Assembly: GCA_023132505.1 (NCBI GenBank)
Contig: JAGLYE010000016.1
Location: 1 to 14,885 of the forward strand
DNA: 14,885 nucleotides
Direction of reading: 5' to 3'
Origin: Bacteroidales bacterium
Lineage (GTDB): Bacteria > Bacteroidota > Bacteroidia > Bacteroidales > B18-G4
In this document: positions 1-14,885 of the stretch, one piece after another
Position numbering within the stretch: position 1 is the stretch's first letter
Layout of the letters: each line of letters begins with the position of its first letter
The notes under the pieces: generated by a model
Told to the model about the DNA's origin: nothing
Databases searched by the model: none
Seen by the model: the letters and a program-made list of their open reading frames with translations, nothing else
Program-made: the position numbers and the translations under genes

Positions 1-125
1 ATTTCATATACAGGCCTATCTATTATAATACACAAATAGCAGAATTGTCACATATTATTTATGGAAATATTGCACTTACACCAGCGAATGCTCAAATCTT
101 ACTAAAAATGAGCAGGACATTTTGA
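1..125 (+). CDS. Possible C-terminal fragment of an unidentified convergent gene
   Basis: The plus-strand frame beginning at base 3 is open from the window edge to a TGA at 123-125, giving about 40 residues. It ends with IALTPANAQILLKMSRTF, whose composition looks protein-like. If real, it is the 3' end of a gene converging on the minus-strand cassette, with the terminator at 235-262 between them. I do not recognise the family. The fragment is short enough that a chance open frame is quite possible in AT-rich DNA, so this is a weak call. Confidence 0.35.
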   Translation, partial: FIYRPIYYNTQIAELSHIIYGNIALTPANAQILLKMSRTF

Positions 126-157
126 ATTTGGTGCTTGGCAAATTGTAATTTGTTTCG

Positions 158-203
158 AATTTAGGGATTTAGAGCTTAGGATTTATTCGACTTAGATTTT
201 CAT
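158..203. repeat. Short degenerate intergenic repeat
   Basis: Three imperfect units of the form (C/T)TTAGG-GATTTA follow one another: TTAGGGATTTAGAG at 161-174, CTTAGGATTTATTCGA at 175-190 and CTTAGATTTTCAT at 191-203. There is no open frame across them. They look like low-complexity intergenic drift; I assign no function. Confidence 0.3.
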
Positions 204-234
204 CTCGCTTCGCATGATAAAAATCAGTCTCATT

Positions 235-262
235 AAAAAGGAGCGACCAAAAAGGCCGCTCC
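235..262 (-). terminator. Rho-independent terminator after the second cassette
   Basis: Read on the minus strand, bases 262-254 and 248-240 form a 9-bp stem (GGAGCGGCC with GGTCGCTCC, one G-U pair) around a UUUUU loop. It is followed at once by a five-U tract (239-235). It lies 25 nt beyond the stop codon of the PKD/T9SS gene that ends at 287. Only the minus strand has the trailing U tract, so it acts in that direction. Confidence 0.85.
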
Positions 263-286
263 CGTCTTCAGACCAGAAAACATTAA

Positions 287-2299
287 CTAATCAACCTTAA
301 TAAAGGTTCTCATCAAGGGTTTGCCATTAGCTGCCTGCAAGCGCAAGTAATACACGCTCTCAGGCAGGTTTGCTATATTTAACTCCAGTTTATTAACTCC
401 TTTATAAACCCAGTGGGTTTGCATGGACATCTTTTGCCCAAGTTGATTATAAATACATATTTCGACAGGCCCTGATTTTTCAGCCGAGACCTCCAGATTA
501 ATACTGCTGTTTGCCGGATTGGGATATAATACATGAATACTGATCGCCTCCTTATATGGCTCTTCGATGGAGAGTGGAGCAGTTTCATACATTGTTATAT
601 AAATCGAATCAGCGACAGGGAAATTCTCATCAAGGATAACGGTCTCGGGATAAGAGAAGATGCTTGCAATATCTGCATATATCCGGTAGGTGCCATATGC
701 GATATTCTCAAATGTAAACTGTCCTTGATCATTGGTCTGGGTCCAGGCCAGCGGCTGGCTTGAAGCATCAGTGAGAATAACGGGCACCTCGTCATAAGAG
801 CGAATGCTGCCAAGCTCCCACCTGTTTTCATCACTTATCACCCTGCCCTTAATTTTACCAATGCCGGGGTCAATACCACTTACTTCAATCAGAAAAGTAT
901 GTGTGTCAAACATATCTTCTTCCAGAAAGACAGATCCTGATTGCGGCCAGGTCATTGCAGAAGGATAATAGGAAGGGATCACTTCCTGGTAATTTTCTGA
1001 TCCGGGGGTAAGGCTGATCCTGATCACATAAGCTAACTCCATCATGTCGGCAAACCAGTAATAACCATGTTCAGTAAATATATTGGTGTCAACAGCCACA
1101 AGGCTCTGATTTGGCCTTTGCCTGTAAAGGATCGCCATGCCGGTGTCGCCGGTATGGTATGGATTATTGATTGGATTCGAGCCAATAAAAGCTTGTCCGC
1201 CAAGTTTAAAATAATTCGCTGTCTGCAAGAGTTTGCATTGAATATCATTACATCCCGGATAATTGCTGTTCCCGCTGTTGAGGCATACTTCATAAAGCCC
1301 GGGCGCATCATAAATATGGGTGGGATGTTGCTCATTGGAAATATTCTCATCGCCAAAATCCCATAGCCAGTGGTCAGGATAACCGCTACTCTGGTCATAG
1401 AATGTGTAATGGTACATCACATTACTGCTTGAATCTACCATGGTATAATATTCCGATTCACAGATTATGGTGTCGGGAAGATTCAGGGTCTTGCATATAA
1501 AGTGGAAGCATGTTTCCAGCGAATCGGCATTGTAAACATTGAGGCATACAAGATATTCATCAGGTGCCGGGAATAAATGAACCGGGTTTTGTTCTGAAGA
1601 AACCGTTCCATCGCCAAAATTCCACTCCCAGTTGGTGATATTGCCGCTTGATTGATCGAAGAATGATACTTCCAGCGGATAATAAGGGTCAATTTCAAAA
1701 GTATAAGCAGCTTCACAATTCACTGAGTCAGGAATGATGATGGTTTTACAAATAGAGTCGGTGCAGAAGTACACTGTATCTGTATGTTGAATGGTCAGGC
1801 ATACCTCATAGCTGCCCGGCTGCACGTAAGGATGAACCGGATTTTGACCATTAGAGGTGCTCCCATCGCCAAAATCCCATAGCCAATTATCGGGATAACC
1901 TAATGATAGGTCTGTAAACTGGACATGGATGGGAGTAGTGGGGACATAAGAATATTCAAAATCGGCCTGGCATTGAGGAACAACCTCAACGGTATCGCAA
2001 TATGTATCGGTGGAGCCAACACCATCGCTAACAGTCAGGCAAACGATATAGGTTCCAAAGGTGCCAAACTCCTTCTCGGGGTGAAAAACGCCTGAGGTAG
2101 TACCATCACCAAAATCCCACATCCATGTGTTGAAGTTGCCGGAAGACTCATTATAAAATTGTATGGTGCTGTTTAAACCGGATACCTGCTCCCAGGTGAA
2201 GTAGCTAATGCATTCAAACATGCTTCTGGCATTATTCCCTGGCAGGAATCCAATGCTGAGGATAAGCGTGAGTAGTGTTAACCGGATCTTTTTATTCAT
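287..2299 (-). CDS. Four-PKD surface protein with T9SS type A sorting domain (cassette 2 cargo)
   Basis: A 670-residue secreted protein. A signal peptide (residues 1 to about 24, hydrophobic LTLLTLILSIGFL) is followed by four PKD domains, recognised by W-(D/N)-F-G-D-(G/E) at residues 61, 141, 226 and 313. Next come a domain opening with GGQAF (367-371), a carboxypeptidase-regulatory-like or CNA-B-like beta domain (about 482-570) and a T9SS type A sorting domain from YPNPA (592-596) to the end. The family is exported by the Sec pathway, then moved across the outer membrane by T9SS and anchored or released. PKD folds usually serve binding or adhesion; no catalytic domain is visible. PKD2-4 carry a repeated cysteine pattern (see findings). 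The gene starts 15 nt after the barrel gene and ends at a strong terminator, so it is the last gene of its operon. Cargo role is inferred from context; the ligand is unknown. Confidence 0.93.
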   Translation of the reverse strand: MNKKIRLTLLTLILSIGFLPGNNARSMFECISYFTWEQVSGLNSTIQFYNESSGNFNTWMWDFGDGTTSGVFHPEKEFGTFGTYIVCLTVSDGVGSTDTYCDTVEVVPQCQADFEYSYVPTTPIHVQFTDLSLGYPDNWLWDFGDGSTSNGQNPVHPYVQPGSYEVCLTIQHTDTVYFCTDSICKTIIIPDSVNCEAAYTFEIDPYYPLEVSFFDQSSGNITNWEWNFGDGTVSSEQNPVHLFPAPDEYLVCLNVYNADSLETCFHFICKTLNLPDTIICESEYYTMVDSSSNVMYHYTFYDQSSGYPDHWLWDFGDENISNEQHPTHIYDAPGLYEVCLNSGNSNYPGCNDIQCKLLQTANYFKLGGQAFIGSNPINNPYHTGDTGMAILYRQRPNQSLVAVDTNIFTEHGYYWFADMMELAYVIRISLTPGSENYQEVIPSYYPSAMTWPQSGSVFLEEDMFDTHTFLIEVSGIDPGIGKIKGRVISDENRWELGSIRSYDEVPVILTDASSQPLAWTQTNDQGQFTFENIAYGTYRIYADIASIFSYPETVILDENFPVADSIYITMYETAPLSIEEPYKEAISIHVLYPNPANSSINLEVSAEKSGPVEICIYNQLGQKMSMQTHWVYKGVNKLELNIANLPESVYYLRLQAANGKPLMRTFIKVD

Positions 2300-2314
2300 T
2301 GTTGTATCGTTTCA

Positions 2315-3622
2315 TTAGAAATGCAAATAAATCCCACCCCTGATCCCGAAGGAATAGGGCGAACGGGCCGGAAATTCCGAAGCCGGGGAATAAACGGATT
2401 TTATATATTGCCTGTAAAATGGTTCCAGTGTAAATCTTAACTGCCTGTTAATTTGATAGTTTATCCCGATGCCGGCAGTATACTGCCATGTTGTAGTCAG
2501 GCGGTCGGGATACTGCCTGATAACTTCTATTTGTTCTGCATCACTTCCCTGGTAAGGCACACCCGGTATATCTTTATATAATTGCAGGGAGAATAATATC
2601 CCGGCTTTGATGTCGAGTGCAAAGCGATTTCCTTCAAAGATCCTGTACCCTACCCGCAACGGTATCTGCAGATAAACAAATTTGTTGGTATTTTCATTGA
2701 TCCTGAAATGATCGATGCTATCGTAGAGGTTCTTTAAACTGGTTTCAAAGATCACCGAATCAGGGTTTTCGGGGGCAATGTTAAAAGAGGTGATCCCTAC
2801 ATAGAATCCAACACTGTCGTAGCTTGAATAATTGATCCGGTATTTAGCACTTTCGCTGGTGTAGTTAACTCCGAGACCACTTTCAAGGATAAAACGTGAT
2901 TTTTCATATGCAGCAACAAATTCCAGGGAATAGTCATTCCGGTTTTGTCTCTCAGGGTAAAAATTTACTGCCGGGCTGAAAGCTGCACCGTAAAGCACAT
3001 CAGCTTTTTTCACATAGTCACCTTTAGTATTAAGGTTAAAGATGGGTTCCGGAGTTTCCCTTAGTTGTGATTCTTTAATTTCCGGCATTGAGTTCACTTT
3101 GATCACACAGGATCTTAATTCCGCCTGGTCGAGATAACAAGTTGAAGTGAGTCTATAACCAAATTCTCCTTGCCGGAGTACTGGTTCATTTTCAGGATCA
3201 GAAAAAATTGGTTTGTTTTCTTCTACAAGAGAAGGAACTCCCTGATCTCCGGGGTAGCCTAAGGAAGAATTCGTATTTGATAAGGGTATAGCTGGTTTAT
3301 TAACAGCTGCTTCTGTACTATTGTTATTACTCAATAAAATGTCAGGGCTTACAGGGTCTTCTAATACAATTGGAATGGCTTCGGTATGTACTTCTTCTGA
3401 TTTAATAAACTGCTCCGGACGTTCATCAAAAATTCCGTACATCAGTAATACAAATGCACCGATCACAATCACTGAGATAAGGAATATGAAGGTGCCTTTT
3501 CCTTTTGCAGACGGGATATGGGTGGTCAGTGATTCCCAAATACCTGCCGAAGGTTCTATCCGGTGCCCGGCCAGGGATTCAAGAAAAAGTTTATCGATAC
3601 TATTTTTTCGTTCTTTTTTCAT
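2315..3622 (-). CDS. Membrane-spanning outer-membrane beta-barrel protein, putative anti-sigma sensor (cassette 2)
   Basis: A 435-residue protein with an unusual layout. Residues 1-42 are polar and contain DKLF-x4-AG-x3-EP-x3-IWE. Residues 44-65 form one strongly hydrophobic helix (FIFLISVIVIGAFVLL). Residues 66-206 are a Pro/Asn/Ser/Glu-rich linker with two cysteines (162 and 172). Residues about 207-435 are alternating beta strands typical of the OMP_b-brl group, ending in YLHF, where the terminal aromatic fits a BAM recognition signal. The ATG overlaps the TGA of the sigma gene by 4 nt (ATGA), implying coupled translation. Adjacency to an ECF sigma gene, plus a cytoplasmic tail and a transmembrane helix, suggests an anti-sigma role; this is inference. 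No zinc-type anti-sigma HxxxCxxC motif is present. An alternative is an ordinary porin-like protein whose hydrophobic segment is a cleaved late signal peptide. Confidence 0.85.
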   Translation of the reverse strand: MKKERKNSIDKLFLESLAGHRIEPSAGIWESLTTHIPSAKGKGTFIFLISVIVIGAFVLLMYGIFDERPEQFIKSEEVHTEAIPIVLEDPVSPDILLSNNNSTEAAVNKPAIPLSNTNSSLGYPGDQGVPSLVEENKPIFSDPENEPVLRQGEFGYRLTSTCYLDQAELRSCVIKVNSMPEIKESQLRETPEPIFNLNTKGDYVKKADVLYGAAFSPAVNFYPERQNRNDYSLEFVAAYEKSRFILESGLGVNYTSESAKYRINYSSYDSVGFYVGITSFNIAPENPDSVIFETSLKNLYDSIDHFRINENTNKFVYLQIPLRVGYRIFEGNRFALDIKAGILFSLQLYKDIPGVPYQGSDAEQIEVIRQYPDRLTTTWQYTAGIGINYQINRQLRFTLEPFYRQYIKSVYSPASEFPARSPYSFGIRGGIYLHF

Positions 3623-4185
3623 TTTGAACGGATATTGGGTTGCATTTTATAGGTCTGTAGCAGTTTTTTTTGCAGTCGGCGCCTTGCCTTTGCCAGTTGA
3701 GATTTTGATGTGTTTACCGAAATGCCTAATTCCCGTGCGATCTCTTTGTGCGAAAAATCTTCAAAAACATACATGTTAAACACAAATCGATAACCATTCG
3801 GCAGGTCCTGTATGAGGCTTAGCAACTCAGACCTGGAAGGTGCATTGTTATATATTCCTTCCTCTTCATCTCCTGTTGTTATGTCCCCCATTTCTTCCAC
3901 ACCAGTTTTGAAATAATGCTTCAGGTTAGCATGATAATAGCTCAATGAAGTATTGATCATAATTCTTTTTATCCAGCCTTCGAAAGAACCTTCTCCCCTA
4001 AATTTGGAGACATTACTGAATACTTTGATGAAGCCTTCATGAAGTACATCTTCAGCTTCTTCTTTCCGTTTGCAATACCGCATGCAAATACCCAGCATGG
4101 TTGATGCATATTTATTATACAACAAACCGAAAGCATGTCTTTCTCCTGATCTGCAGCCTTCTAATATTTCCTGGTCTGGAATCAT
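3619..4185 (-). CDS. ECF-type RNA polymerase sigma factor (cassette 2)
   Basis: A 188-residue sigma-70 family protein with only regions 2 and 4. Region 2 (about 22-80) has the core-binding and -10 recognition stretch AEDVLHEGFIKVF and then GSFEGWIKRIMIN. Region 4 (about 119-175) has the helix-turn-helix HKEIARELGISVNTSKSQLA. An acidic linker (about 96-112) separates them. A TTG codon lies 12 nt upstream in frame (4195-4197), but the ATG at 4183-4185 fits the usual family N-terminus and is preferred. The gene heads the second cassette. It would direct RNA polymerase to envelope-related promoters, probably including its own (candidate site at 4204-4230). It is close in sequence to the sigma factor at 7289-7828, for example in AEDVL-x-EGFIKVF and NTSKSQL. 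Confidence 0.93.
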   Translation of the reverse strand: MIPDQEILEGCRSGERHAFGLLYNKYASTMLGICMRYCKRKEEAEDVLHEGFIKVFSNVSKFRGEGSFEGWIKRIMINTSLSYYHANLKHYFKTGVEEMGDITTGDEEEGIYNNAPSRSELLSLIQDLPNGYRFVFNMYVFEDFSHKEIARELGISVNTSKSQLAKARRRLQKKLLQTYKMQPNIRSK

Positions 4186-4203
4186 CAAAAACCCCAACTG
4201 TTT

Positions 4204-4230
4204 TTAAGACTGTTGTCCATGACAAAGGTT
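4204..4230 (-). promoter_or_regulatory. Candidate ECF-type promoter for cassette 2
   Basis: On the minus strand GCAACCTTT (AACC at 4230-4227) is followed after 16 nt by GTCTTAA (4210-4204). This is the general shape of ECF promoters: an AAC-type -35 element, a 16-17 nt spacer and a GTC-type -10 element. Transcription would begin roughly 10-15 nt upstream of the ATG at 4185, giving a very short leader. A small dyad (TTGTC-cat-GACAA, 4213-4225) lies in the spacer. This suggests autoregulation by the encoded or sister sigma factor. The match is by eye only. Confidence 0.4.
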
Positions 4231-4288
4231 GCCTAAAGGAAAATGTTTACTTCCCTTTATTATCAGGCCTCCCTGACTCTCTGTAAAT

Positions 4289-4322
4289 AAAAAAGACATC
4301 CCGAGAAACATTGCGGGATGCC
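4289..4322 (-). terminator. Rho-independent terminator after cassette 1
   Basis: On the minus strand bases 4322-4314 pair with 4303-4295 (core GCATCCCG with CGGGATGT, one G-U pair) around a 10-nt loop. A run of six U follows (4294-4289). It sits 24 nt beyond the cargo stop at 4346 and just before the presumed promoter of cassette 2, so the two cassettes are probably separate transcripts. The other strand also has five T after the stem, so it could act in both directions. Confidence 0.85.
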
Positions 4323-4345
4323 TTTTTCTCATATGGGTACAGTCC

Positions 4346-5962
4346 TTAGTTAATTTTTATAAAGGATTTAATATGTTTTTCATTTCCAAATAATACCATC
4401 ACTTTATACATACCGGCAGAAAGATTAGATGTATTCATTTGTAACAGGTTTTCACCTGTTTGATGATGGCTGTTGTATTTGTCAACTACCTGACCACTTT
4501 GGTTCAGGATAAATACCTGTACAGATCCGGTTTCAAGCAAATTAAACCTGATGTTAACATACAACCGGGCAGGGTTAGGGTAAGGATCACCAAGTCCGGT
4601 GAGCTTAGCATTGATATCATTGCTGATGCCATAATAGATATCTTCATCGTAAACAATGATGCTTATATCTTCTACTGTGGGATGATCAGCTGAAAGAATA
4701 ATGCTGGTAGGATAACTGAACTTGCCGGGGACTTCGGCCAAAATCTTATAGGTTCCATATGCAAGATCGGAGAACTCAAAAATCCCGTTTTTACCGGACT
4801 TAATGTATGTCAGGCAGTTGTCACTTTCATTAAATAAAATGATCTCGACATCTTCGAAAACAGTGTTTTTCCCATTGAGGAAAACCACACCGTCAATATT
4901 ACCGGGCCCTGCGTTAAACTCATAGTTTGGCACCATATTAATATTGTATTCCCAGGCAGTGGCATTCAGTTTTATGGTTTCAGCTTTTGTCCAAAGCAGG
5001 ACATTTCCGAAATACGTTGGCAAATAATCTCCGGCATGGACTGAACTGCCCGAAGGGAAGGTTTTTACCTTATAATTTCCCTCAATCATCTGATAGAAGT
5101 AATAACACCCAAGAGTATCAAATTCTGTAGTGTCGATGGGGATAAATTCATCTTCCTCAATTTTATAAAGAAATGCTGTTCCTACATCAACCGGGAAGTA
5201 GCCGGCAAAAGCCTGTCCGCCAAAATGATAATACTCACGCATGCCAACCTTCACTTTTTTAATGAGTATGCTGGTAATGACATCATAGGTATAACTTTCA
5301 GTAGAAATTGTCAGGGAAACATCATAAACACCGGCTTGTTCATAAACATGATTTGGGTTTTTATCCATTGATGTGCTCCCATCTCCAAAGGTCCAATACC
5401 AGGATGCAATTCCTGCACCGGTCGATTCATTGGTAAAATAATAACTGAGGTTGTTATGGGTGATGGTATCCCTGTTAGGACTAAAGTTTGCCTGGAAAAC
5501 GTTTGCCGAACTTGGGTCAAATACCTTTAATGCGACATTTGCATAATAGGTTTGTTCCCAGCGAAATCTAAAAAACTCTTCTGTTTCGTATTTGACGCCA
5601 TTTACATCAAATGCAGAAATAAGCAATGAGCCTTTTTCTGAAATTGTGCTGATGGTATCATAGAAAAATCCATAAACATCAGTGTATTTGATGTGACAAA
5701 AGCTCATTCCCCCGCCTGTAGCTATGTTTGACTGTATATACACCTTTTGGTCTGAAACTGGTGCTCCGTTTTCAGTATTTGTGATCTGCCCCGAAAGATA
5801 TACAGAGTTTGTTTTGTTCTGGGCAAAGGTAGTAGTAATAGAAATGATAAAAAGTATCGTTAAGGGCAAAAGCATCCTTTGTAGCAGCAATTTTCGCCGG
5901 CTTTGGGTCTGCCTTAAATGCAATCGTATTCGGGAGTATAAATGTTGCATGGTCAGGTTCAT
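4346..5962 (-). CDS. Single-PKD surface protein with T9SS type A sorting domain (cassette 1 cargo)
   Basis: A 538-residue secreted protein. The N-terminus has a long basic region (about 30 residues) before the hydrophobic core LLPLTILFIISI and a cleavage site near FAQ (46-48). A beta-sandwich regulatory-like domain follows (about 52-147), then one PKD domain (about 150-235, WTFGDG at 190-195), then a domain with GGQAFAG (248-254) and PTYFGN (315-320). A second carboxypeptidase-regulatory-like domain (about 353-438) and a T9SS type A sorting domain from YPNPA (461-465) complete it. The start ATG overlaps the barrel-gene TAA as TAATG, which supports this start despite the long N-region. An internal Met30 would give a conventional signal peptide. 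From GGQAF to the C-terminus it matches the cargo at 287-2299 in domain order, so the two are paralogues. No enzymatic motif was seen. Confidence 0.92.
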   Translation of the reverse strand: MNLTMQHLYSRIRLHLRQTQSRRKLLLQRMLLPLTILFIISITTTFAQNKTNSVYLSGQITNTENGAPVSDQKVYIQSNIATGGGMSFCHIKYTDVYGFFYDTISTISEKGSLLISAFDVNGVKYETEEFFRFRWEQTYYANVALKVFDPSSANVFQANFSPNRDTITHNNLSYYFTNESTGAGIASWYWTFGDGSTSMDKNPNHVYEQAGVYDVSLTISTESYTYDVITSILIKKVKVGMREYYHFGGQAFAGYFPVDVGTAFLYKIEEDEFIPIDTTEFDTLGCYYFYQMIEGNYKVKTFPSGSSVHAGDYLPTYFGNVLLWTKAETIKLNATAWEYNINMVPNYEFNAGPGNIDGVVFLNGKNTVFEDVEIILFNESDNCLTYIKSGKNGIFEFSDLAYGTYKILAEVPGKFSYPTSIILSADHPTVEDISIIVYDEDIYYGISNDINAKLTGLGDPYPNPARLYVNIRFNLLETGSVQVFILNQSGQVVDKYNSHHQTGENLLQMNTSNLSAGMYKVMVLFGNEKHIKSFIKIN

Positions 5963-7296
5963 TAAAAGTTAAACAATAGTCCGGTCCTTAAACCAACAGC
6001 ATAAGGATGACGGGTAGTTATATACTTGCGTTCGTATTGTGAGTTCAAATAATATTTCAATGTAGGTTCAATGGCAATACTGACTTTCCGTGACAGCTGA
6101 TAGGTTAATCCGGCACTAAAGGCCAGTTGCCAGTGTGCATTTACACGTGTTGGCATTTGCTGATTGACATCGATAATCCTGTCGTTGCCGGCATCCGGTT
6201 TTGGAATATTTTCGTTCACCAGGATAGATAATACAGGCCCACCTTTGATGAACCACCCAAAGCGGTTTACCTCTTTATGGAAACCGATATATACAGGAAT
6301 TTGCAGATATGTATAGCGGTTCTTGGTTTTCTCAATTTTAAACTTACTGATAGAATCATAAACACCTACAATAGTTGTGTGGTATATGGGTACAATAGCT
6401 CCTCCTTCTGTTGTGTCGAAAGTAACATTATACACATCGTCATACGTTCCGAGGAACTTTTCATAGTCGATGTTATATTTCCCGTCGTCGGAAGAAAAAG
6501 AAAGGCCAAGGCCGGATTCAACAAAGAATTCATTTTTCTGCCATTTTCCTGTGACCTCAACAGTATAACTCTTCTGGTTAGGGATGGAGTCATCGGGGTA
6601 AAAGATCACTTCTGGGGTGAAATAAAAGCCCAGCTGCCATGCAGCCCTTCGATTATACCGGCGTTCCCCATCGTTTATTCCGGCATATTTCGGATTGAGC
6701 CTGCTGTCGCGGACCTGTATATTTTCAGAGTTTAATCTTAGCATGGATGTATGCAGTGAGTATGATCGCCGCGCCCTGAGTTTGGCCAATCGTGCTTTTT
6801 CAGAAAATGCATCTCCAAATGTTGTTTCCACATAGTAAGTGTGCAAGCTGGAATGGGGTTCATTTCCCGGCAGTGTTACACCTTCCGTTTTTTCACCTTC
6901 ACTTTTAATATCTGAAGATCCGGGTATAGGTTTTGGCCCAGGTATTATATCTTGTTCATTTTCAATATTAGCAGGAAGGTCTTCTGCAATAACCGGGATT
7001 TTTGCCACTTCAGGAGCAACAATGGAAGTCTCTTCAATAATCATTGCTGTTTGGCCATCGATAACCAAATTATTATGTGTAATACCTGGAGAATCTTTGA
7101 TGATGCTGAATCCAAGCAGGCCGGAGATCATCACGAGGGCAGCCAGAACAGCAAGGTTTACCGGGTTTACAGAGCCACCACCTTTACCGTGCAGTTCGGC
7201 ATGGACATTTTCCCATACCGAAGCAGGCGGTTCTGTTTCAAAACCGGCAAACTTGCTTTGAAAAAGCTTATCCAGGTATTTGCTTTCTTCAGTCAC
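5962..7296 (-). CDS. Membrane-spanning outer-membrane beta-barrel protein, putative anti-sigma sensor (cassette 1)
   Basis: A 444-residue paralogue of the protein at 2315-3622. Residues 1-45 are polar and hold DKLF-x4-AG-x3-EP-x3-VWE. Residues 47-66 are one hydrophobic helix (NLAVLAALVMISGLLGFSII). Residues 67-217 form a linker rich in Pro, Glu and Ile. Residues about 218-444 are a beta-barrel ending in LLFNF. Shared barrel blocks include F-Y-P-(E/D), F-x-(L/V)-ESGLG and YLQIP-x3-G. The start is GTG (7294-7296) and overlaps the sigma gene by 8 nt; the next in-frame Met (56) lies inside the membrane helix, so GTG is the only start that keeps the N-terminal motif. The stop overlaps the next start (TAATG). 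Anti-sigma or signal-transducing function is inferred from position and topology. It has no linker cysteines, unlike its paralogue. Confidence 0.85.
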   Translation of the reverse strand: MTEESKYLDKLFQSKFAGFETEPPASVWENVHAELHGKGGGSVNPVNLAVLAALVMISGLLGFSIIKDSPGITHNNLVIDGQTAMIIEETSIVAPEVAKIPVIAEDLPANIENEQDIIPGPKPIPGSSDIKSEGEKTEGVTLPGNEPHSSLHTYYVETTFGDAFSEKARLAKLRARRSYSLHTSMLRLNSENIQVRDSRLNPKYAGINDGERRYNRRAAWQLGFYFTPEVIFYPDDSIPNQKSYTVEVTGKWQKNEFFVESGLGLSFSSDDGKYNIDYEKFLGTYDDVYNVTFDTTEGGAIVPIYHTTIVGVYDSISKFKIEKTKNRYTYLQIPVYIGFHKEVNRFGWFIKGGPVLSILVNENIPKPDAGNDRIIDVNQQMPTRVNAHWQLAFSAGLTYQLSRKVSIAIEPTLKYYLNSQYERKYITTRHPYAVGLRTGLLFNF

Positions 7297-7828
7297 CTTT
7301 TACTTTTCTTTTTAGTTTTTCCTGAAGAACGCCCCTTGCCCGTGATAATTGAGATTTCGAGGTGTTTTCAGAAATATTCAGCATATCACCAATCTCCTTA
7401 TGTGTATATCCTTCAATTACATTGAGGTTAAAAACCATGCGATACCCATCCGGGAGTTCCTGTATCAACTCCAGCAACTCTTTGGCCGACAGTTTGTCAA
7501 TAGCGCTTTCTTCTTCGTTATTGATGGGCTCGGTTTGGTCAAGGCTAACATCTTTCTGGTATTTAACCTTTTTCTTATAGAAATTAATGGCCGTATTTAC
7601 CACGGTTTTGCGGATCCATCCTTCCAGTGATCCTTCATTCCTATAATCCTTCAAATACCTGAATACCTTGATAAAGCCTTCCTGCAAAACGTCTTCGGCT
7701 TCCATCTTGTTTTTTGTGTAACGCAGACAAATGCCAAACATTTTGGGCGCAAACTGCCGGTATAACTCCCCCTGTGTTTTGGAGTCGTTATTCAGACAAC
7801 GTTCTATGAAGTCCTCATCAAAATGCAT
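7289..7828 (-). CDS. ECF-type RNA polymerase sigma factor (cassette 1)
   Basis: A 179-residue sigma-70 family protein. Region 2 (about 21-85) contains AEDVLQEGFIKVF and GSLEGWIRKTVVNTA. Region 4 (about 114-172) contains the DNA-binding helices HKEIGDMLNISENTSKSQLS. The open frame extends 29 codons further upstream to 7915, but that extension is cysteine- and hydrophobic-rich and unlike the family. The ATG at 7826-7828 aligns the N-terminus with the paralogue at 3619-4185 and is chosen. The gene heads the first cassette. It has a leader of dyads (7844-7859, 7883-7907) but no clear Shine-Dalgarno sequence, which is normal for Bacteroidota. Its targets are unknown; autoregulation of the cassette is likely. 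Confidence 0.93.
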   Translation of the reverse strand: MHFDEDFIERCLNNDSKTQGELYRQFAPKMFGICLRYTKNKMEAEDVLQEGFIKVFRYLKDYRNEGSLEGWIRKTVVNTAINFYKKKVKYQKDVSLDQTEPINNEEESAIDKLSAKELLELIQELPDGYRMVFNLNVIEGYTHKEIGDMLNISENTSKSQLSRARGVLQEKLKRKVKGD

Positions 7829-7843
7829 ACAACATAATAAGCA

Positions 7844-7859
7844 CAACACTTTTGTGTTG
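7844..7859. promoter_or_regulatory. Perfect inverted repeat 15 nt upstream of the sigma start
   Basis: CAACAC-tttt-GTGTTG (plus strand) has perfect 6-bp arms and a 4-nt loop, ending 15 nt before the ATG at 7828. In RNA it would form a small hairpin near the ribosome-binding zone. As DNA it could be a repressor site. There is no T tract, so it is not a terminator. Confidence 0.45.
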
Positions 7860-7882
7860 GCTAAAATAATGTTAAAACCCTG

Positions 7883-7907
7883 ACCCTGACACATATAAGT
7901 GTCGGGT
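7883..7907. promoter_or_regulatory. Bulged inverted repeat in the sigma leader
   Basis: ACCC-t-GACAC-atataa-GTGTC-GGGT pairs through nine positions with one bulged base. It shares the ACAC...GTGT arms of the dyad at 7844-7859, with 6 rather than 4 nt between the arms. It overlaps the edge of the candidate promoter at 7907-7932. Operator or leader hairpin are both possible. Confidence 0.45.
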
Positions 7908-7932
7908 AGATACAATTTATCAAAGTAAAGTT
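7907..7932 (-). promoter_or_regulatory. Weak candidate ECF-type promoter for cassette 1
   Basis: On the minus strand TTAACTTT (AAC at 7932-7930) and GTATCTA (7913-7907) are 16 nt apart, loosely echoing AACC-N16-GTCTTAA at 4204-4230. The -10 half is a poor match. It would give a leader of roughly 70 nt that includes both dyads. Confidence 0.22.
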
Positions 7933-8006
7933 AAGGAATTTTTTACTCGATAGGCATTTAAATCCGGATTTTTTGGTTTTAACATAGCGCGCTTATGTCT
8001 ATGCAT
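7920..8006 (-). CDS. Possible 28-residue basic peptide
   Basis: ATG at 8004-8006 to TGA at 7920-7922 encodes 28 residues starting MHRHKRAMLKPKNPDL and ending NSLTLL. It has seven Lys/Arg plus two His and only one acidic residue. It is preceded, at 7-nt spacing, by GGAGGAG (8020-8014), a near-perfect Shine-Dalgarno sequence that is rare in this phylum. No homologue is recognised. It could be a small protein, a leader peptide for the sigma cassette, or chance. The Shine-Dalgarno is the main support. Confidence 0.27.
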   Translation of the reverse strand: MHRHKRAMLKPKNPDLNAYRVKNSLTLL

Positions 8007-8013
8007 TATGGTT

Positions 8014-8020
8014 CTCCTCC
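8014..8020 (-). promoter_or_regulatory. Strong Shine-Dalgarno sequence GGAGGAG
   Basis: On the minus strand GGAGGAG lies 7 nt before the ATG at 8006. None of the large genes in the window shows such a site, which makes this one stand out. Confidence 0.4.
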
Positions 8021-8029
8021 TATTTAAAA

Positions 8030-8060
8030 GAACAATATTGCAATACATCACGTAGACAAA
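8030..8060 (-). promoter_or_regulatory. Weak candidate Bacteroidota housekeeping promoter
   Basis: On the minus strand TTTG (8060-8057) is followed after 19 nt by TATTGTTC (8037-8030), a partial match to the Bacteroidota TTTG / TAnnTTTG pattern. It would place the start of transcription just upstream of the GGAGGAG site. The -7 element has two mismatches. Confidence 0.17.
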
Positions 8061-8081
8061 AATTTTATGAAAAGGGTTGCA

Positions 8082-8096
8082 TGAATATGATATTCA
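8082..8096. promoter_or_regulatory. Perfect 15-bp dyad after the RND gene
   Basis: TGAATAT-g-ATATTCA has 7-bp arms around a single base, 16 nt past the stop of the RND permease gene. The centre is too tight for an RNA hairpin of full length and no T tract follows. A protein-binding site is possible; no regulator is known. Confidence 0.3.
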
Positions 8097-8112
8097 AGCT
8101 TGTCAGATGCGT

Positions 8113-11100
8113 TTATTGTGTTTTATGTCGTGGGATGAAAAGTTTGATTTTTGCAAGGTAAAGCACGTGATACATAGATGGCACGATAACAAGCGTGAGG
8201 AAGGTAGCAAATGTTAAACCATAAATGATGGTCCATGAAATTGGCCCCCAAAACGCAACATTGTCACCTCCCCAATATAATTGTGCGTCGAAAGTTGCCA
8301 GGAAGGATGCAAAGTTAATATTAAGACCCATGGCAAGTGGCAATAAGCCCAGGATGGTAGTGATGGCTGTGAGCAAGACCGGGCGTAACCTTGTTTTTCC
8401 GGCTTCTACGATACATCGGGTCGAATCCTGGACAGATATTACCGCCCCGGAAGACAAGCCAAGTTCTTTTCGCCTGCGACGTTTAAGCAAATCGACATAA
8501 TCTATCAGAACAATAGCATTGTTCACAACAACTCCTGACAGGGAAACAATTCCTATCCCTGTCATTATTACGACAAAATCCATCCCGCTGATCATCAGCC
8601 CGGCGAATACTCCAATTGTGCTGAAGATCACACTGAATATGATAATGGCAGGTTTAACAATAGAGTTGAACTGAGATACAAGGATGATGGTGATAAGGGA
8701 AATGGCGATCAAAAGGGCATTTATCAGGAACGCCATAGATTCTTCTTGTTCTTCCTGTTCACCGGTAAACTTATAATTATATCCGGGAGGCATATCAAAA
8801 TATAGCATCTGGGCCTTTAGCTGCTCATTTATCTTGGTGGCATTATAACCTTCTACCACATTGGAGTAAATTGTCACTGCCCTTTCCATATCCTTTCTTT
8901 TTACCGAGCCGTAAGTAGAGGTATAGCTAATTTCAGCAACAGCGGATATCGGAACCTGTGTAATCTTTCCGGTTGAAGGGCTCCTGAAGGTGATCATTTG
9001 ATTCAGCAATGCAGGAAGGTTGTAGCGGTATTCCTCTTTTAGCCTGAGCTGTATGGGATATTCATCTTCACCAACCTTAAACCCTGATACTTCTTTTCCG
9101 AATAGAGCCGTACGGATTGTGCTTGCGATCTGTACCGTTGACAGTCCGAAACGCCTGGCCTTATCGCGGTCGATATTGATAATAATCTCCGGCTTGCCAA
9201 GGTCAAGGTCGATTTTAAGTCCTTCAATACCCTCAATATTAGCAGTATTCAAATATGCCTGAATCGTATCGGAAAGGTAAACCAACTGATCGAACTCCCT
9301 GCCGAGGATCTCAAGGTTGATCGGTTTCCCGGCCGGTGGGCCCTCATTTTGCTTTTCGATGGTCATTTCAACCCCCGGGTACCTGCCTAAAAGGGTCTCA
9401 CTCAACTGAACCAGTATATCGCCCGTGTTTATACCCTCTCTATCCTCATAATCAATAAACGAAATAGTGATCAATCCCCTGAACATCTTTTCTGACATGT
9501 CGTTGATATCATCTTCGAGCCTGGCTCCGGCACCCACTGTTGTGAGAACGGACTTTACAACTGATTGATTTGGCTCCAGGACAGCAAATACATCTTCCTC
9601 AAGCGTCTTCATAAACTCGTTTGTAGCTGTAATGTCGGTCCCAATAGGCAAGTCAGCGAGGACATTGATATACTTCGGGTCACTCGATGGGAAGTTAATC
9701 ACATTGGGATTACTGTTGAAATATATGTATATCGTGAGGATGAGCACTACAAGAGTGGATCCGATGAAATAGAAAGAATTGTTTTTACGAAGGGCAAAGC
9801 TTATCAGTTTAAGGTAGCCATTTTCGAGTTTAATCAGAAATATATTCTGGAACCACCTTGCGGCCCGGTTCAACACATAAGTATTCAGGATTCCGATGAT
9901 GGCAAAAATTGCACATAAAGTACCCATGGTGTTGATACCTCCCAGATAGAAAAATACTGACATCAGCGCAAGGATGCCTGTAATAATGAGTGACCGTTTG
10001 ATGTTCGGTTTTGGATTCTGATCACCTGCTTTGATGAAAGTAGATGAAATCACCGGAATGATCACCAATGCAACAAAAAGTGAAGACGACAAAACAATTA
10101 TCAGGGTTAAAGGAAGGTACTTCATGAACTCTCCCATTATACTATCCCAGAAGAGTAATGGGAAAAAGGCTGCCAAAGTAGTGGCAGTAGAGGTGATGAT
10201 CGGAATTGCGATCTCTCCCACTGCCCGTCTGGCTGCTTCAAGTTTTCCATATCCCCGGTCCACAAAACGGTAGATGTTTTCAACCACCACAATGGCATTG
10301 TCGACAAGCATACCCAGGGCCAGGATGAGGGCAAAGAGTACTATCATATTGATTCTGGATCCCATGAGCCCAAGAATCATGAATGACAGGAACATAGACA
10401 TGGGAATGGCAAAGCCGACAAACAGGGAATTCCTGGTTCCCAGGAAAAAGAAAAGTACGAGGATCACTAAGATCACACCCATGATCATGCTGTTCTCCAG
10501 GTTGCTGAGCTGGTCCCTGACCATCACCGACTGGTCGTTTGTGTAATCGATGCGCAGGTTTGAGGGCAGCCTTTTTGTTGCAACCGCATCATCAATTATT
10601 TCAAATACCTGATCGGTAGCATTTAACAGGTTTTTACCGCTTTTTTTGATTACCTGAAGGGAAACGACAGGATGCCGGTCGAGACGCGTAAAGCTCCTGG
10701 GCTCTTCAAAGCCATAAATAACCTCCGCTACATCGCGCATGTACACAATATTGTGATTTTCCCACTTCACGATAATGTCGCTGATCTCAGATGGATCAGC
10801 AAATTCGCCGATGACCCTGATCGAGCGCCGGCTGTTTCCAAGTTTTATCTCTCCACCCGACATGGATATATTCTCATAGGCAATGGCTTTTTCAATATCG
10901 TCGAAATTAAGCTCGAAAACATTCAGCTTATGCATGTCCACATTAATCTGTACTTCTCGTTCGTTGATCCCGGTAATATTGACTTTTGAGATTTCCGGTA
11001 CCCTTTCGATCTCGTCTTCAAGGAACTCTGCATACTCCTTGAGTTCGTTAATGCTATAATCACCGGAAAGGTTGATATTCATGATGGGGAATTCCGACAG

Positions 11101-11532
11101 GTCCAGATCGATCACCACGGGATCCGTCAAAAGGTTATCCGGCAATTCGCCTTTGGCTTTATCAACGGCATCCTTGACTTCCTGAAGGGCATCTTCGATC
11201 TTAATATTGGTATTAAACTCAACAAAGATGGCTGAAATGTCCTGTGTAGAGGTTGAACGGATTTCCTTTACCCCTTTAGCCGATTCAATTTCCTTTTCGA
11301 GTGGCCGGGTGATGAGGTTCTCAATATCCAGGGGCGGGTTGCCCGGATACATGGTCTGGACGAAGATTGTCGGCCAAACCAGGTCGGGGAACAACTCCTT
11401 GGGGAGAGAGCGGTAAGAATAAAAGCCAAATCCTAACAAAAGGATCATCATGAGAAAAACAGTATTCTTGTTTCTCAGGGCCCATGAACTGAGCTTGAAT
11501 TCCCGGATAACTTCTTTCTCCTTGATTTCCAT
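8113..11532 (-). CDS. RND-family efflux permease (AcrB-like)
   Basis: A 1139-residue inner-membrane proton-driven exporter. It has the two-fold RND plan: TM1 (about 24-40), a periplasmic porter domain (about 41-345), TM2-6 (about 346-500), a second periplasmic domain (about 605-930) and a final TM bundle (about 935-1128). TM4 carries GMLVDNAIVVVEN (407-419), with Asp411 at the proton-relay position; the twin on the second half is VVVNNAIVLIDYVD. This pattern resembles hydrophobic-amphiphilic (HAE-type) exporters more than metal-ion CusA types. Residues 513-531 and 534-553 add two hydrophobic helices between TM6 and TM7, beyond the usual twelve and making the protein longer than typical AcrB (about 1050). 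The start abuts the adaptor stop (TAAATG). Together with the adaptor and TolC-like protein it should form a tripartite pump. The substrate cannot be predicted. Confidence 0.95.
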   Translation of the reverse strand: MEIKEKEVIREFKLSSWALRNKNTVFLMMILLLGFGFYSYRSLPKELFPDLVWPTIFVQTMYPGNPPLDIENLITRPLEKEIESAKGVKEIRSTSTQDISAIFVEFNTNIKIEDALQEVKDAVDKAKGELPDNLLTDPVVIDLDLSEFPIMNINLSGDYSINELKEYAEFLEDEIERVPEISKVNITGINEREVQINVDMHKLNVFELNFDDIEKAIAYENISMSGGEIKLGNSRRSIRVIGEFADPSEISDIIVKWENHNIVYMRDVAEVIYGFEEPRSFTRLDRHPVVSLQVIKKSGKNLLNATDQVFEIIDDAVATKRLPSNLRIDYTNDQSVMVRDQLSNLENSMIMGVILVILVLFFFLGTRNSLFVGFAIPMSMFLSFMILGLMGSRINMIVLFALILALGMLVDNAIVVVENIYRFVDRGYGKLEAARRAVGEIAIPIITSTATTLAAFFPLLFWDSIMGEFMKYLPLTLIIVLSSSLFVALVIIPVISSTFIKAGDQNPKPNIKRSLIITGILALMSVFFYLGGINTMGTLCAIFAIIGILNTYVLNRAARWFQNIFLIKLENGYLKLISFALRKNNSFYFIGSTLVVLILTIYIYFNSNPNVINFPSSDPKYINVLADLPIGTDITATNEFMKTLEEDVFAVLEPNQSVVKSVLTTVGAGARLEDDINDMSEKMFRGLITISFIDYEDREGINTGDILVQLSETLLGRYPGVEMTIEKQNEGPPAGKPINLEILGREFDQLVYLSDTIQAYLNTANIEGIEGLKIDLDLGKPEIIINIDRDKARRFGLSTVQIASTIRTALFGKEVSGFKVGEDEYPIQLRLKEEYRYNLPALLNQMITFRSPSTGKITQVPISAVAEISYTSTYGSVKRKDMERAVTIYSNVVEGYNATKINEQLKAQMLYFDMPPGYNYKFTGEQEEQEESMAFLINALLIAISLITIILVSQFNSIVKPAIIIFSVIFSTIGVFAGLMISGMDFVVIMTGIGIVSLSGVVVNNAIVLIDYVDLLKRRRRKELGLSSGAVISVQDSTRCIVEAGKTRLRPVLLTAITTILGLLPLAMGLNINFASFLATFDAQLYWGGDNVAFWGPISWTIIYGLTFATFLTLVIVPSMYHVLYLAKIKLFIPRHKTQ

Positions 11533-12681
11533 TTAAATAATTTTTACTTCTGTACCGGCGGTAACCAGTGAATAACCTTCGATAATAACCTGATCGCCAG
11601 GGTTCAGGCCTGATAATATCATTGTTTCATCGTTGTATGACATCCCGGAGGTGATGTAGACCTTTTTGGCGATGGCTTTTCCATCGACCTCTTTGACAAT
11701 ATATACGTATTCACCCTGAATGTCTTCTTTAATAACGATAGAGGGAATAATAAGGGCATTGTTTTCATTGAAGTCCAGAAAGGTAATGAGCGCAAGGATA
11801 TTTGGCTTCAGCTGCCCATCGATATTATCGATCCTTAGCTCAACTGGAAATGTGCGGTTACCCAGATTGACAACATTGCCGGTGCGTTCCACAGCTACTT
11901 TCATTTCAATAGATGGAAAGGTAGGGAAAGTCAGTTCCACCACATCACCCTTGTTGATCACCGGGAGGTATTTTTCTGAAACGTTGGAAGAGATCTTGAG
12001 CTTATTCAGGTTGATCACCTGCATCAGCTGAAACCCGGGCATTGCCAATTCCCCTTCCTCAATAAAGATTGCATCAACGATCCCATTGATCGGGGATTTA
12101 ACATATGCCATATCAAGTTGTGCCTGCAGGGTTAGCAACTTGCTTTCCATGGCTTCCTTATTATTCTTGGCCTGAAGGTATTGTACTTCTGAACCGATAT
12201 TCTTATCCCAGAGTTGCTTTTGCTTCTCGTAAAGCGTGTTGGCCATCTCCTGCTGTGTTTTTATTTCCTGAATTGTGTTTTCGGTAATACTCGTGTTAAG
12301 CCTGGCAAGTAACTGCCCTTTTTTGACATGATCCCCTTCCTCTACCAGAATCTCTTTGACCTGGCCATTGATCTCCGGGCTGATAAATGCCTTTTCAACT
12401 GCATCAACATTCCCGCTGACCTGGAAATAATGATTGAATGGGCGCTCTTGCAGCCTATCGATCGTTACCGGGCTTATGAATTGTTCCCCTGTTTCTCCGA
12501 GTGATGCAAGCTCCTGCTCAAGCTCTTTGATCTTGATGTTCAGCCGGACTACCTCATCCTTATATTCCCTGATCTGGCTTTTGACCGCTTCCTTTTCGTC
12601 GACAGGATCGCATGATGCTGCTATAAGGATGATTATTGCAATGGAAAGGACTTTTCTCATTGTGTGGTTTATTAATTGCAT
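11533..12681 (-). CDS. Efflux RND periplasmic adaptor (membrane fusion protein), lipoprotein
   Basis: A 382-residue adaptor that links the RND permease to the outer-membrane channel. A signal with lipobox AASC puts the lipidated Cys at residue 24. A predicted coiled coil follows immediately (about 29-62). The lipoyl-like half-motifs are at about 100-128 (INGQVKEILVEEGDHVKKGQ) and 192-222 (VKSPINGIVDAIFIEEGELA), flanking an alpha-helical hairpin (about 130-190). Beta-barrel and membrane-proximal domains (about 225-382) complete it. The first ATG (12679-12681) overlaps the FKBP stop as TAATG, implying coupling. Met8 (start at 12660) would give a more standard signal peptide and is an equally good start. 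Its stop abuts the RND start. Confidence 0.94.
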   Translation of the reverse strand: MQLINHTMRKVLSIAIIILIAASCDPVDEKEAVKSQIREYKDEVVRLNIKIKELEQELASLGETGEQFISPVTIDRLQERPFNHYFQVSGNVDAVEKAFISPEINGQVKEILVEEGDHVKKGQLLARLNTSITENTIQEIKTQQEMANTLYEKQKQLWDKNIGSEVQYLQAKNNKEAMESKLLTLQAQLDMAYVKSPINGIVDAIFIEEGELAMPGFQLMQVINLNKLKISSNVSEKYLPVINKGDVVELTFPTFPSIEMKVAVERTGNVVNLGNRTFPVELRIDNIDGQLKPNILALITFLDFNENNALIIPSIVIKEDIQGEYVYIVKEVDGKAIAKKVYITSGMSYNDETMILSGLNPGDQVIIEGYSLVTAGTEVKII

Positions 12682-13382
12682 TAATAGATCTTAATAAGTT
12701 CAACATTGTAGATAAGGGTTTCACCTCCAAACATGACGTTGGGGATACCCTCATCACCATAAGCAAGACCGGATGGGATGAAAAGCTCATATATGCTTCC
12801 GGTATTCATAAGTTGGAGGCCCCCCGACAATCCGCTTATTACCTTTGACAATCTCACCCCCTGTGGGCCGCGCTGGTATGATTCATCAAATGTTGAACCA
12901 TCGATGAACATAGCCCTGTAATGGATCAGTACGCTGTCATTGGCAACAGGTGTTGGCCCGTTTCCTTTCTTAAGGATCCTGTATTGCAGTCCATCCGGCA
13001 GTTGTATAACCCCTTCACGCATTTTGTTCTGGGCCATGAAGAGGGCGCCGTCTTCTTTATTTTGACGTATCCTGGCAAGAATCTGTTCCTGTTGCTTCTC
13101 CTGGCTTTGTTTGTTGATTTCATCAAAAAAGACAAGTTTTACGGAATCAGGGAAATCATCTTTTCCGTTTACTGTATTATAGAAGCCCTTGTAGAAGGCC
13201 TCAGGGTTGGGTTCGTATCCATTCGCTTTGAGCACATTGGCATAATCGGATCCGATGATATAGCTTAAAGAGTCATTGTGATCTTTCAGCTGTACGGAGG
13301 AGGGATCATTGCCCGTTTCGCAAGCTGCCAGGAAGCATGCAGACAGGAGCAGTACAAATAACTTTTGGGATGGGTTTTTCAT
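12681..13382 (-). CDS. FKBP-type peptidyl-prolyl isomerase lipoprotein (Mip-like)
   Basis: A 233-residue protein with lipobox LAAC (18-21), an alpha-helical FKBP N-terminal dimerisation-like domain (about 34-125, Lys/Gln-rich helix 90-125) and a C-terminal FKBP domain (about 138-233). Conserved pocket elements seen are IHYRAMFIDGSTFDESY (Tyr155, Asp166) and GLAYGDEG (Tyr208). The usual Trp of the VIxGW motif is absent: residues 181-185 read VISGL. Ile-Pro at the usual IPPNATL site is replaced by VMFGGETL. Catalysis may be reduced, leaving a chaperone function. It acts in the periplasm, lipid-anchored. It lies between the TolC-like and adaptor genes and overlaps the adaptor start by 1 nt, so it may help fold or assemble the pump. 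That role is inferred. Confidence 0.92.
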   Translation of the reverse strand: MKNPSQKLFVLLLSACFLAACETGNDPSSVQLKDHNDSLSYIIGSDYANVLKANGYEPNPEAFYKGFYNTVNGKDDFPDSVKLVFFDEINKQSQEKQQEQILARIRQNKEDGALFMAQNKMREGVIQLPDGLQYRILKKGNGPTPVANDSVLIHYRAMFIDGSTFDESYQRGPQGVRLSKVISGLSGGLQLMNTGSIYELFIPSGLAYGDEGIPNVMFGGETLIYNVELIKIY

Positions 13383-13439
13383 GGTTGTTTTATTTATGGA
13401 TGTGAGTATCCTGTTATGATATATTCCAGATGCTGCTTA

Positions 13440-14789: not shown

Positions 14790-14846
14790 TACATCGATTC
14801 GTTTTTTATCCGTCAGGATACCTGTATGACGCTTGACCCAAGTATT

Positions 14847-14885
14847 TTATTGTAAGTCTTCCTTCTTTAATTCTTTTTTGAAGAT
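14847..14885 (-). CDS. Possible C-terminal tail of an upstream gene (partial)
   Basis: The minus strand from the window edge reads IFKKELKKEDLQ and a TAA at 14847-14849. The stop is 57 nt before the TolC-like start. The composition (Lys/Glu/Leu-rich helix) fits the end of a small regulator; a TetR-type repressor commonly precedes such operons, but 12 residues cannot establish this. A second frame is open a little further (to 14807), so the frame itself is uncertain. Confidence 0.35.
   Translation of the reverse strand: MFKKELKKEDLQ

Follow-up and report, generated by a model that had tools for sequence, protein, structure and literature searches.

Two tandem sigma factor modules in a Bacteroidales contig encode probable Dma-type single-chain regulators coupled to type IX secretion

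Results

Organization of the locus

The DNA analysed here, which we call the window, is a contig of 14,885 nucleotides (JAGLYE010000016.1, positions 1 to 14,885 of the forward strand; assembly GCA_023132505.1) from a Bacteroidales bacterium with an incomplete genome (75.7%; 1.90 Mb; contig C68 of G000 in our numbering). The list of open reading frames (ORFs) shows two tandem three-gene modules on its minus strand, sigma1-B1-P1 followed by sigma2-B2-P2, in which an extracytoplasmic function (ECF) sigma factor gene is followed by a gene for a single-chain protein with a transmembrane (TM) helix and a C-terminal barrel (B), and by a gene for a protein with a type IX secretion system (T9SS) sorting tail (P). 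Judging from sequence and structure models, we consider it likely that B1 and B2 are regulators of the Dma type, the "dual membrane-spanning anti-sigma" architecture of Bacteroides, which has the same domain order (PMC13088901, in excerpt), and that they are coupled to type IX secretion. The genes of the two modules are as follows.

7289..7828, minus strand: sigma1, ECF sigma factor (Pfam Sigma70_r2 and r4_2; relatives)
5962..7296, minus strand: B1, probable Dma-type single-chain protein of 444 amino acids (ORF, Pfam, profile, AlphaFold)
4346..5962, minus strand: P1, with a signal peptide (by eye), PKD, the P-core described below and a type A T9SS sorting tail
3619..4197, minus strand: sigma2, ECF sigma factor (Pfam)
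2315..3622, minus strand: B2, probable Dma-type single-chain protein of 435 amino acids (ORF, Pfam, AlphaFold, Foldseek)
287..2299, minus strand: P2, with four PKD stretches, the P-core and a type A T9SS sorting tail

Although the longest ORF of sigma1 opens at 7915 with TTG, translation probably starts at residue 30 of that frame, an ATG at 7828, in agreement with the length of most relatives (177-181 amino acids). B1 starts with GTG, 8 nt within the sigma1 ORF, and B2 starts in an ATGA overlap with the end of sigma2.

Domain order and predicted structure of B1 and B2

An earlier note, made from the letters of the window, had described a polar N-terminus, an internal TM helix, a linker and a barrel ending in phenylalanine, and this architecture was confirmed for both proteins. 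The parts are:

7165..7296, minus strand: B1 N-terminal putative sigma-binding segment, residues 1-44 (AlphaFold; conservation)
7099..7164, minus strand: B1 TM helix, residues 45-66 (hydropathy, AlphaFold)
6643..7098, minus strand: B1 linker, residues 67-218, mostly disordered, with one weak helix at 166-177
5965..6642, minus strand: B1 small barrel, residues 219-444, apparently of eight strands (AlphaFold; Foldseek)
within 2315..3622, minus strand: B2 N-terminal segment, residues 1-42, and linker, residues 65-207 (AlphaFold)
3431..3496, minus strand: B2 TM helix, residues 43-64 (hydropathy, AlphaFold)
2318..3001, minus strand: B2 barrel, residues 208-435 (Pfam, AlphaFold)

The top hydropathy peaks fall at residues 43-68 of B1 and 41-66 of B2, and from the end of the TM helix to the first strand there are 152 and 142 residues, respectively. 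The earlier note had named a structure with no barrel as one outcome that would count against it; AlphaFold, applied to each chain alone with 27 (B1) and 32 (B2) aligned sequences, predicts a barrel in both. The 10-residue means of the predicted local distance difference test (pLDDT) are 85-98 across the barrels, with lower values in a single block of B1 (75) and in three blocks of B2 (73-81), and pLDDT is <50 over most of the linkers (residues 67-213 of B1 and 66-202 of B2). From the strand lists, both modelled barrels are apparently eight-stranded. Their best Foldseek matches include OmpA, NspA, Ail, OmpW and OmpX, although larger barrels match too and the first match of B2 is a Legionella porin. 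Among the 50 matches listed for each of B1 and B2, TM-scores by query length are ≤0.29, which is low because about one third of the chain is disordered. The Pfam model OMP_b-brl_2 matched B2 above its cut-off (30 vs. 27 bits) and B1 below it (22.6 vs. 27). A sequence search of the PDB with B2 returned nine matches, all to unrelated proteins (best E 0.21).

Ahead of the membrane helix, AlphaFold predicts two short helices in each protein (residues 3-16 and 25-35 of B1; 3-17 and 26-35 of B2), and the two N-termini have in common the pattern D..(F)...L.....P(P)..(V)W, which in B1 includes a PP..VW motif.

The B family in relatives

We collected 93 distinct ORFs with a match to the B profile, and the presence of a sigma gene was never a criterion for selection. 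They came from the window, from 20 regions of relatives (L031-L050), from 29 loci of Bacteroidota or Bacteroidales metagenome-assembled genomes (L081-L109), from 12 regions near DUF4943 or phylum matches (L147-L158), and from 20 further regions of the phylum (L159-L178); across the phylum, the B profile matched in 88 of 395 genomes. Eighty of the proteins are complete from the N-terminus to the end of the barrel; the other 13, which include the sigma-fused L158, were excluded as cut, broken, barrel-less or partial.

Every one of the 80 complete proteins has an ECF sigma gene directly upstream, at a distance of ≤20 nt and with an overlap in 60 cases, and given this adjacency the B architecture is beyond chance. 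The N-terminus and the barrel are conserved and the linker is variable, with mean top-residue fractions of 0.40 in the N-terminus, 0.32 in the TM helix, 0.21 in the linker and 0.41 in the barrel. The most conserved N-terminal positions, in B1 numbering, include W28 (0.96), P23 (0.78) and D9 (0.76), and a P..W regular expression finds 71 of the 80. The last residue is phenylalanine in 51 (B1 and B2 among them), and either phenylalanine or tyrosine in 58. In one subclass (L045-L050), a P...W motif occurs twice ahead of the TM helix.

From the search of the phylum, nine further proteins of 245-331 amino acids (L056, L057, L060, L063, L069, L070, L073, L074 and L076) match the N-terminal part of the B profile only, have no barrel match, and lie directly behind a sigma gene in each case. 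The same N-terminus and TM helix thus occur with and without a barrel, as would be expected of an anti-sigma part. Separately, two B2-type genes are split into two overlapping frames (L087, 4405-5779; L097, 8832-10164), which reflects either real decay or an assembly error.

Membrane topology

The earlier note placed the N-terminus in the cytoplasm, the helix in the inner membrane, the linker in the periplasm and the barrel in the outer membrane. This topology agrees with both the sequences and the models. Linkers of the 80 proteins are 104-297 residues long (median 157), and as an extended chain measures ~0.34 nm per residue, even the shortest could span about 35 nm.

The note's further remark, that the N-terminus is unlike that of a secreted protein, also held up, insofar as the B helix does not look like that of a typical cleaved signal peptide. 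The uncharged run of the 80 B proteins is 15-28 residues long (median 21) and starts at a median of residue 49, compared with medians of 16 residues and residue 13 in 55 P-profile proteins. An [AVS]xA sequence lies close to the end of the core in 9/80 B and 21/55 P proteins; the difference in flanking charge fails to separate the two groups (median 4 vs. 3). As a control, we took the 41 PF13568 matches in three genomes (G000, G002 and G007) and viewed the N-termini of 29 picks (L110-L138). By eye, 27 of these, representing 26 distinct genes (L114 and L131 are one gene), look like ordinary short signal peptides; for L133 and L137 a wrong ORF had been picked. On sequence, then, the B proteins do not have the short cleavable signal peptide of an ordinary PF13568 outer-membrane protein.

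The P partner and type IX secretion

Both P1 and P2 combine PKD domains with a type A T9SS sorting tail, which was checked in these two proteins and in the P1-like protein of L298; P1 also has a carboxypeptidase-regulatory-like match slightly below cut-off. A P-profile gene is next after B in 57 of the 80 complete loci, namely in all those from the window, L031-L050 and L081-L109, and this coupling in the lineage is new relative to Dma. Five genomes contain 18 P1-like genes (E<1e-30), 16 of which are in modules; the other two are at the start of a contig, which cuts off their upstream neighbours. G054 has two weaker matches (E 6.5e-18 and 7.1e-15) that are not part of any recognisable module. 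By eye, P1 (residues ~236-355) and P2 (~390-505) also have in common a stretch without a Pfam name, the P-core, and it is nearly confined to sigma-B-P modules in the five genomes.

SprA, a core part of the T9SS, was found in 11 of the 12 lineage genomes with a B match. The genome of the window has two genes for the sortase PorU. Tandem PorU genes were seen in G000 (C201), G002 (C320), G003 (C234), G021 (C237) and G053 (C29), and in pieces in G001 (C44) and G006 (C189); a promoter site of the kind described below lies between the tandem genes, before the second, in G000, G001, G002, G003 and G006. An exact-word search of one open-access library returned nothing that joined anti-sigma, type IX secretion, outer membrane, beta-barrel and ECF sigma factor.

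Putative promoters and a predicted regulon

Each module is preceded by a putative ECF promoter.

8054..8081, minus strand: putative promoter of sigma1-B1-P1, TGCAACC-N16-TGTCT (cross-genome pattern)
4206..4234, minus strand: putative promoter of sigma2-B2-P2, AGGCAACC-N16-GTCTT (spacing one base shorter)

In 55 regions upstream of P-module sigma genes, the top dyad is CAAC-N17-TGTC, which is found in 29 of them; the maximum in five resampled sets was 12. The 25 sites with full flanks give the consensus TGCAACC-N16-TGTCT, and a matrix built from them scores above the 99% null in 31/55 P-module regions (training sites included) and in 4/23 others. Taken by itself, the window gives no significant result for the sigma1 pattern when one mismatch is allowed (1.16 expected, one found), so the weight of this site comes from the cross-genome comparison. 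The sigma2 site of the window falls below the 99% null of the sigma1-trained matrix (9.0 vs. 11.6), and its form, AGGCAACC-N16-GTCTT, recurs at a like position in relatives.

Ten genomes (G000-G008 and G054) together contain 55 TGCAACY-N16-TGTCT sites, against four for a reversed control. Nine of the 55 sites precede sigma1 operons, in every genome but G003. Among the other 46, five lie before PorU genes, which are complete at L301 and L307 and cut at L305, L317 and L319 (that of L305 being a short piece below the model cut-off). Nine precede a gene of the papain family with a Lectin_like domain, one each in G000-G008; seven of the products pass the TIGR04183 cut-off, that of L304 has just a Pfam tail match, at 26.8 vs. 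27 bits, and that of L293 is cut before the tail. Another nine precede other genes with a T9SS tail, the P1 gene of G004 included. The remaining recognisable targets are DUF3276 genes (nine, in G001-G008 and G054; one identified by Pfam, the rest by near-identical starts), aldehyde dehydrogenase-like genes (four; one Pfam-checked, three by eye) and MbnP-like genes (two; one Pfam hit, one weak NCBIfam hit). The DUF3276-like product (L286, L287, L292, L299, L302, L308, L311, L321 and L327; 9/10 genomes) is small and without an evident signal peptide, yet its gene shares the sigma1-type promoter with T9SS cargo genes.

Matches to T9SS tails number from 80 to at least 150 per genome, or some 5% of genes on the assumption of one gene per kb. 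PorU, papain-family and other tail-bearing genes make up 23 of the 46 predicted targets, which is ~10 times this background. In G000, G001, G002, G003 and G054, where PorU was located with its own profile, GCAAC[CT]-N16-TGTCT lies 15-30 nt before one of the genes (in G001, the first in-frame ATG is 157 nt from the site). Taking the TGCAACY site and the GCAACY variant together, a site precedes a PorU gene in 10/10 genomes. The five variant sites carry a preceding AG and so combine the -35 element of sigma2 with the spacing of sigma1, so that either sigma factor may read them. As predictions, the promoter pattern and its T9SS targets are new relative to Dma.

About 225 nt separate the putative sigma1 promoter from the probable ATG at 7828, and 16 of the 25 sites are 219-242 nt before the ORF start. 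A structured leader between promoter and ATG (7828-8081) is possible, with no Rfam match there; an Rfam scan of the whole window gave 0 elements at the gathering threshold. The stretch upstream of both modules (8113-14789) holds, likewise on the minus strand, genes for an AcrB-type pump and an FKBP isomerase, identified by Pfam, and adaptor-like and outer-membrane efflux-like genes, recognised by eye.

Discussion

Kinship with the Dma family

The idea of a single chain in two membranes is not new, since it has already been published as the Dma architecture. The excerpted account describes Dma1/2/3 of Bacteroides thetaiotaomicron, paired with the ECF21 sigma factors Das1/2, and shows control of vesiculation for Dma1 and Dma2 (PMC13088901). 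An anti-sigma factor of the same topology was reported from Phocaeicola in 2022, in the M0N98_03760-61 pair (PMC9308784), and both papers cite the EcfO sigma/anti-sigma pair of B. fragilis. B1 and B2 resemble these proteins in having a C-terminal β-barrel (AlphaFold, Foldseek), a TM helix behind a short N-terminal segment, and a long disordered tether between the two. The founding paper of the Dma family reportedly appeared in PNAS in 2024.

We judged kinship by way of Dma-layout loci in relatives from the same order rather than by the B. thetaiotaomicron sequences. DUF4943 was matched in seven of 198 genomes of the order, and regions from six were examined. Two of these (L147 and L148) have the sigma-barrel-DUF4943 arrangement of Dma2, and the B profile matches their barrel genes (E 7.9e-17 in G297 and 1.8e-8 in G289, among the ORFs of 12 regions); the other four regions have neither a B nor a sigma match. 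The B profile also matches L158 (5763-7406, minus strand, G453), a natural fusion of ECF sigma factor, TM helix, linker and barrel with the layout of Dma3; the same genome has SprA too. An hhalign comparison of A2 with A3 adds to the evidence of kinship over the barrel (97.8%, E 6.5e-13). We also built a tree of 99 sigma factors, consisting of the 80 B partners and 19 other ECF sigma factors (out of 30 examined among 53 sigma-region-2 matches in G000, G002 and G297; six of the 30 were already partners, and the others lacked a usable ORF). In this tree, 74 of the 80 partners, including both sigma factors of the window and all six partners from Dma-layout relatives of the order, form one weakly supported clade that is free of the 19 others. 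Homology and layout together make it likely that B1 and B2 belong with the Dma family.

Proposed mechanism

Our best explanation of the locus is as follows. The N-terminal segment of ~45 residues would hold the ECF sigma factor in the cytoplasm, the uncleaved helix would serve as an anchor in the inner membrane, the disordered linker would cross the periplasm, and the small barrel would sit in the outer membrane. A single chain could in this way carry the state of the surface or outer membrane to the sigma factor, and a change in the barrel would free it. Freed sigma would then raise expression of its own operon, PorU and cargo: with sigma1-type promoters before PorU and T9SS cargo genes, it probably adjusts the type IX programme as well as its own operon. 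P is the best candidate for the outside contact of the barrel, by analogy with PorA, which feeds PorXY-SigP (PMC7712824, in excerpt). We infer that P takes part in sensing, and likewise which sigma factor acts at which sites. One hypothesis, raised in the earlier note, is that the sigma-binding segment reads barrel occupancy directly; the mode of release (conformational pull, barrel misassembly or proteolysis) is not distinguishable from sequence.

Several points weigh against this explanation. With regard to the anti-sigma role, no Pfam anti-sigma domain was found in the N-terminus of B1 or B2 at E≤1, and the P..W search missed nine proteins (L041, L042, L043, L147, L148, L156, L172, L173 and L177), including the two with Dma2 layout. 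With regard to kinship, the hhalign comparison covers barrel columns only, so that N-terminal kinship with Dma rests on profile matches and layout; support for the 74-member sigma clade is weak (0.36; a subclade of 65 members has 0.76), and it excludes the sigma factors of the six double-motif proteins (L045-L050), which group beside one of the other ECF sigma factors. A P-profile gene follows B in 0/23 loci outside the lineage, and the core mechanism therefore does not include P. The incomplete genome of the window gave no SprA match. Finally, the regulon is predicted from a pattern in ten genomes that are related rather than independent, and many of its targets are orthologues; of the 46 sites, four have no sensible target and four have targets cut at the end of a contig or region. 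Counted across whole genomes, the sigma2-type pattern shows no enrichment (8 vs. 8, with five of the eight before sigma2 genes), and we rejected it as a genome-wide regulon.

Among other explanations, the one that survives best keeps the chain in both membranes as a resting state and has it signal by regulated, RseA-like cleavage of the linker or helix. Release by proteolysis is common among membrane anti-sigma factors, and the long disordered linker, which is unconserved, would be easy to cut. We regard such cleavage as a serious contender, if somewhat short of probable, and it is compatible with the mechanism proposed above rather than opposed to it. A second possibility is that the barrel serves P chiefly as a partner in export or display and that the sigma arm provides feedback on cargo supply instead of sensing an outside signal. 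The 57 loci with P after B, the near confinement of P1-like genes to modules in five genomes, and the sigma1-type sites before PorU and cargo genes would all fit, but the lack of such a partner in the 23 loci outside the lineage makes this unlikely. It is also rather improbable that the protein is tethered without spanning, its barrel waiting in the periplasm or at the inner membrane until it can assemble, and so reporting the capacity of the β-barrel assembly machinery (BAM). In its favour, a similar pair is tied to envelope stress, and many genes with a known response to a BamA-binding peptide were likewise induced by the toxin (PMC9308784, in excerpt). Nothing in the window separates this reading from occupancy sensing. 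Least probable by our estimate is an unusually long cleaved signal peptide, with an ordinary outer-membrane barrel and an N-terminal piece that is discarded or acts alone: extended signal peptides do exist on some outer-membrane proteins and [AVS]xA is present late in the core of nine B proteins, but we rejected cleavage as the leading interpretation on the length and position of the uncharged run, the short signal peptides of the PF13568 control and the conservation of the N-terminus (W in 96%), which also recurs with its TM helix on the nine barrel-less proteins behind sigma genes.

Returning to the Dma-type regulator, we suggest, tentatively and with more doubt than belief, that the sigma-B-P module is a gauge of type IX secretion, in which T9SS-exported P meets the B barrel and the chain signals cargo delivered or missing to the sigma factor, which sets PorU and cargo. 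If so, a single protein would replace the PorA-PorXY-SigP relay, and the tandem modules would be two gauges working in parallel. Dma proteins offer the simplest possible answer to the question of how bacteria inform the cytoplasm, past two membranes, about the state of the outer membrane and surface; known Dma proteins are tied to vesicles and stress, and their ligands are unknown. A fixed partner, P, and a predicted regulon of PorU and surface cargo offer a concrete candidate ligand and function, and so make sensing directly testable.

Comparison with known systems

In the FecA-FecR-FecI system, barrel and anti-sigma factor are separate proteins, and a large, plugged TonB-dependent barrel serves as the receptor. 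The logic, from outer-membrane barrel to cytoplasmic sigma factor, is similar, but B1 and B2 are single chains with a small barrel, and we rejected membership in this group, as neither protein has a FecR or TonB-receptor domain at E≤1.

In the PorXY-SigP-PorA system of Porphyromonas gingivalis, an ECF sigma factor likewise governs T9SS genes (PMC7712824; PMC4800418), and PorA, a surface protein bearing a C-terminal domain, feeds the signal (PMC7712824). There, a two-component system links the surface protein and the sigma factor, whereas here one chain could relay the signal. The M0N98_03760-61 pair of Phocaeicola vulgatus resembles the present modules in its large anti-sigma factor, predicted to cross the periplasm and to have an outer-membrane barrel, with the sigma gene upstream; it differs in being induced by an antibacterial toxin, probably via envelope stress, and the available text of the paper mentions no T9SS partner (PMC9308784).

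The closest likeness is to the Dma family, described in the excerpts of PMC13088901 as having an N-terminal anti-sigma part, a TM helix, a long disordered tether and a C-terminal barrel, an adjacent sigma gene (with dma2 likewise in a three-gene operon), and as being restricted to Bacteroidota. Compared with that account, the third gene here encodes a T9SS-sorted PKD protein and not DUF4943, two complete modules stand in tandem, and the predicted regulon comprises T9SS genes (PorU and cargo) in place of vesicle or polysaccharide utilization locus genes. The locus would thus add a T9SS-coupled Dma variant that has a fixed partner at the surface and for which a T9SS regulon is predicted.

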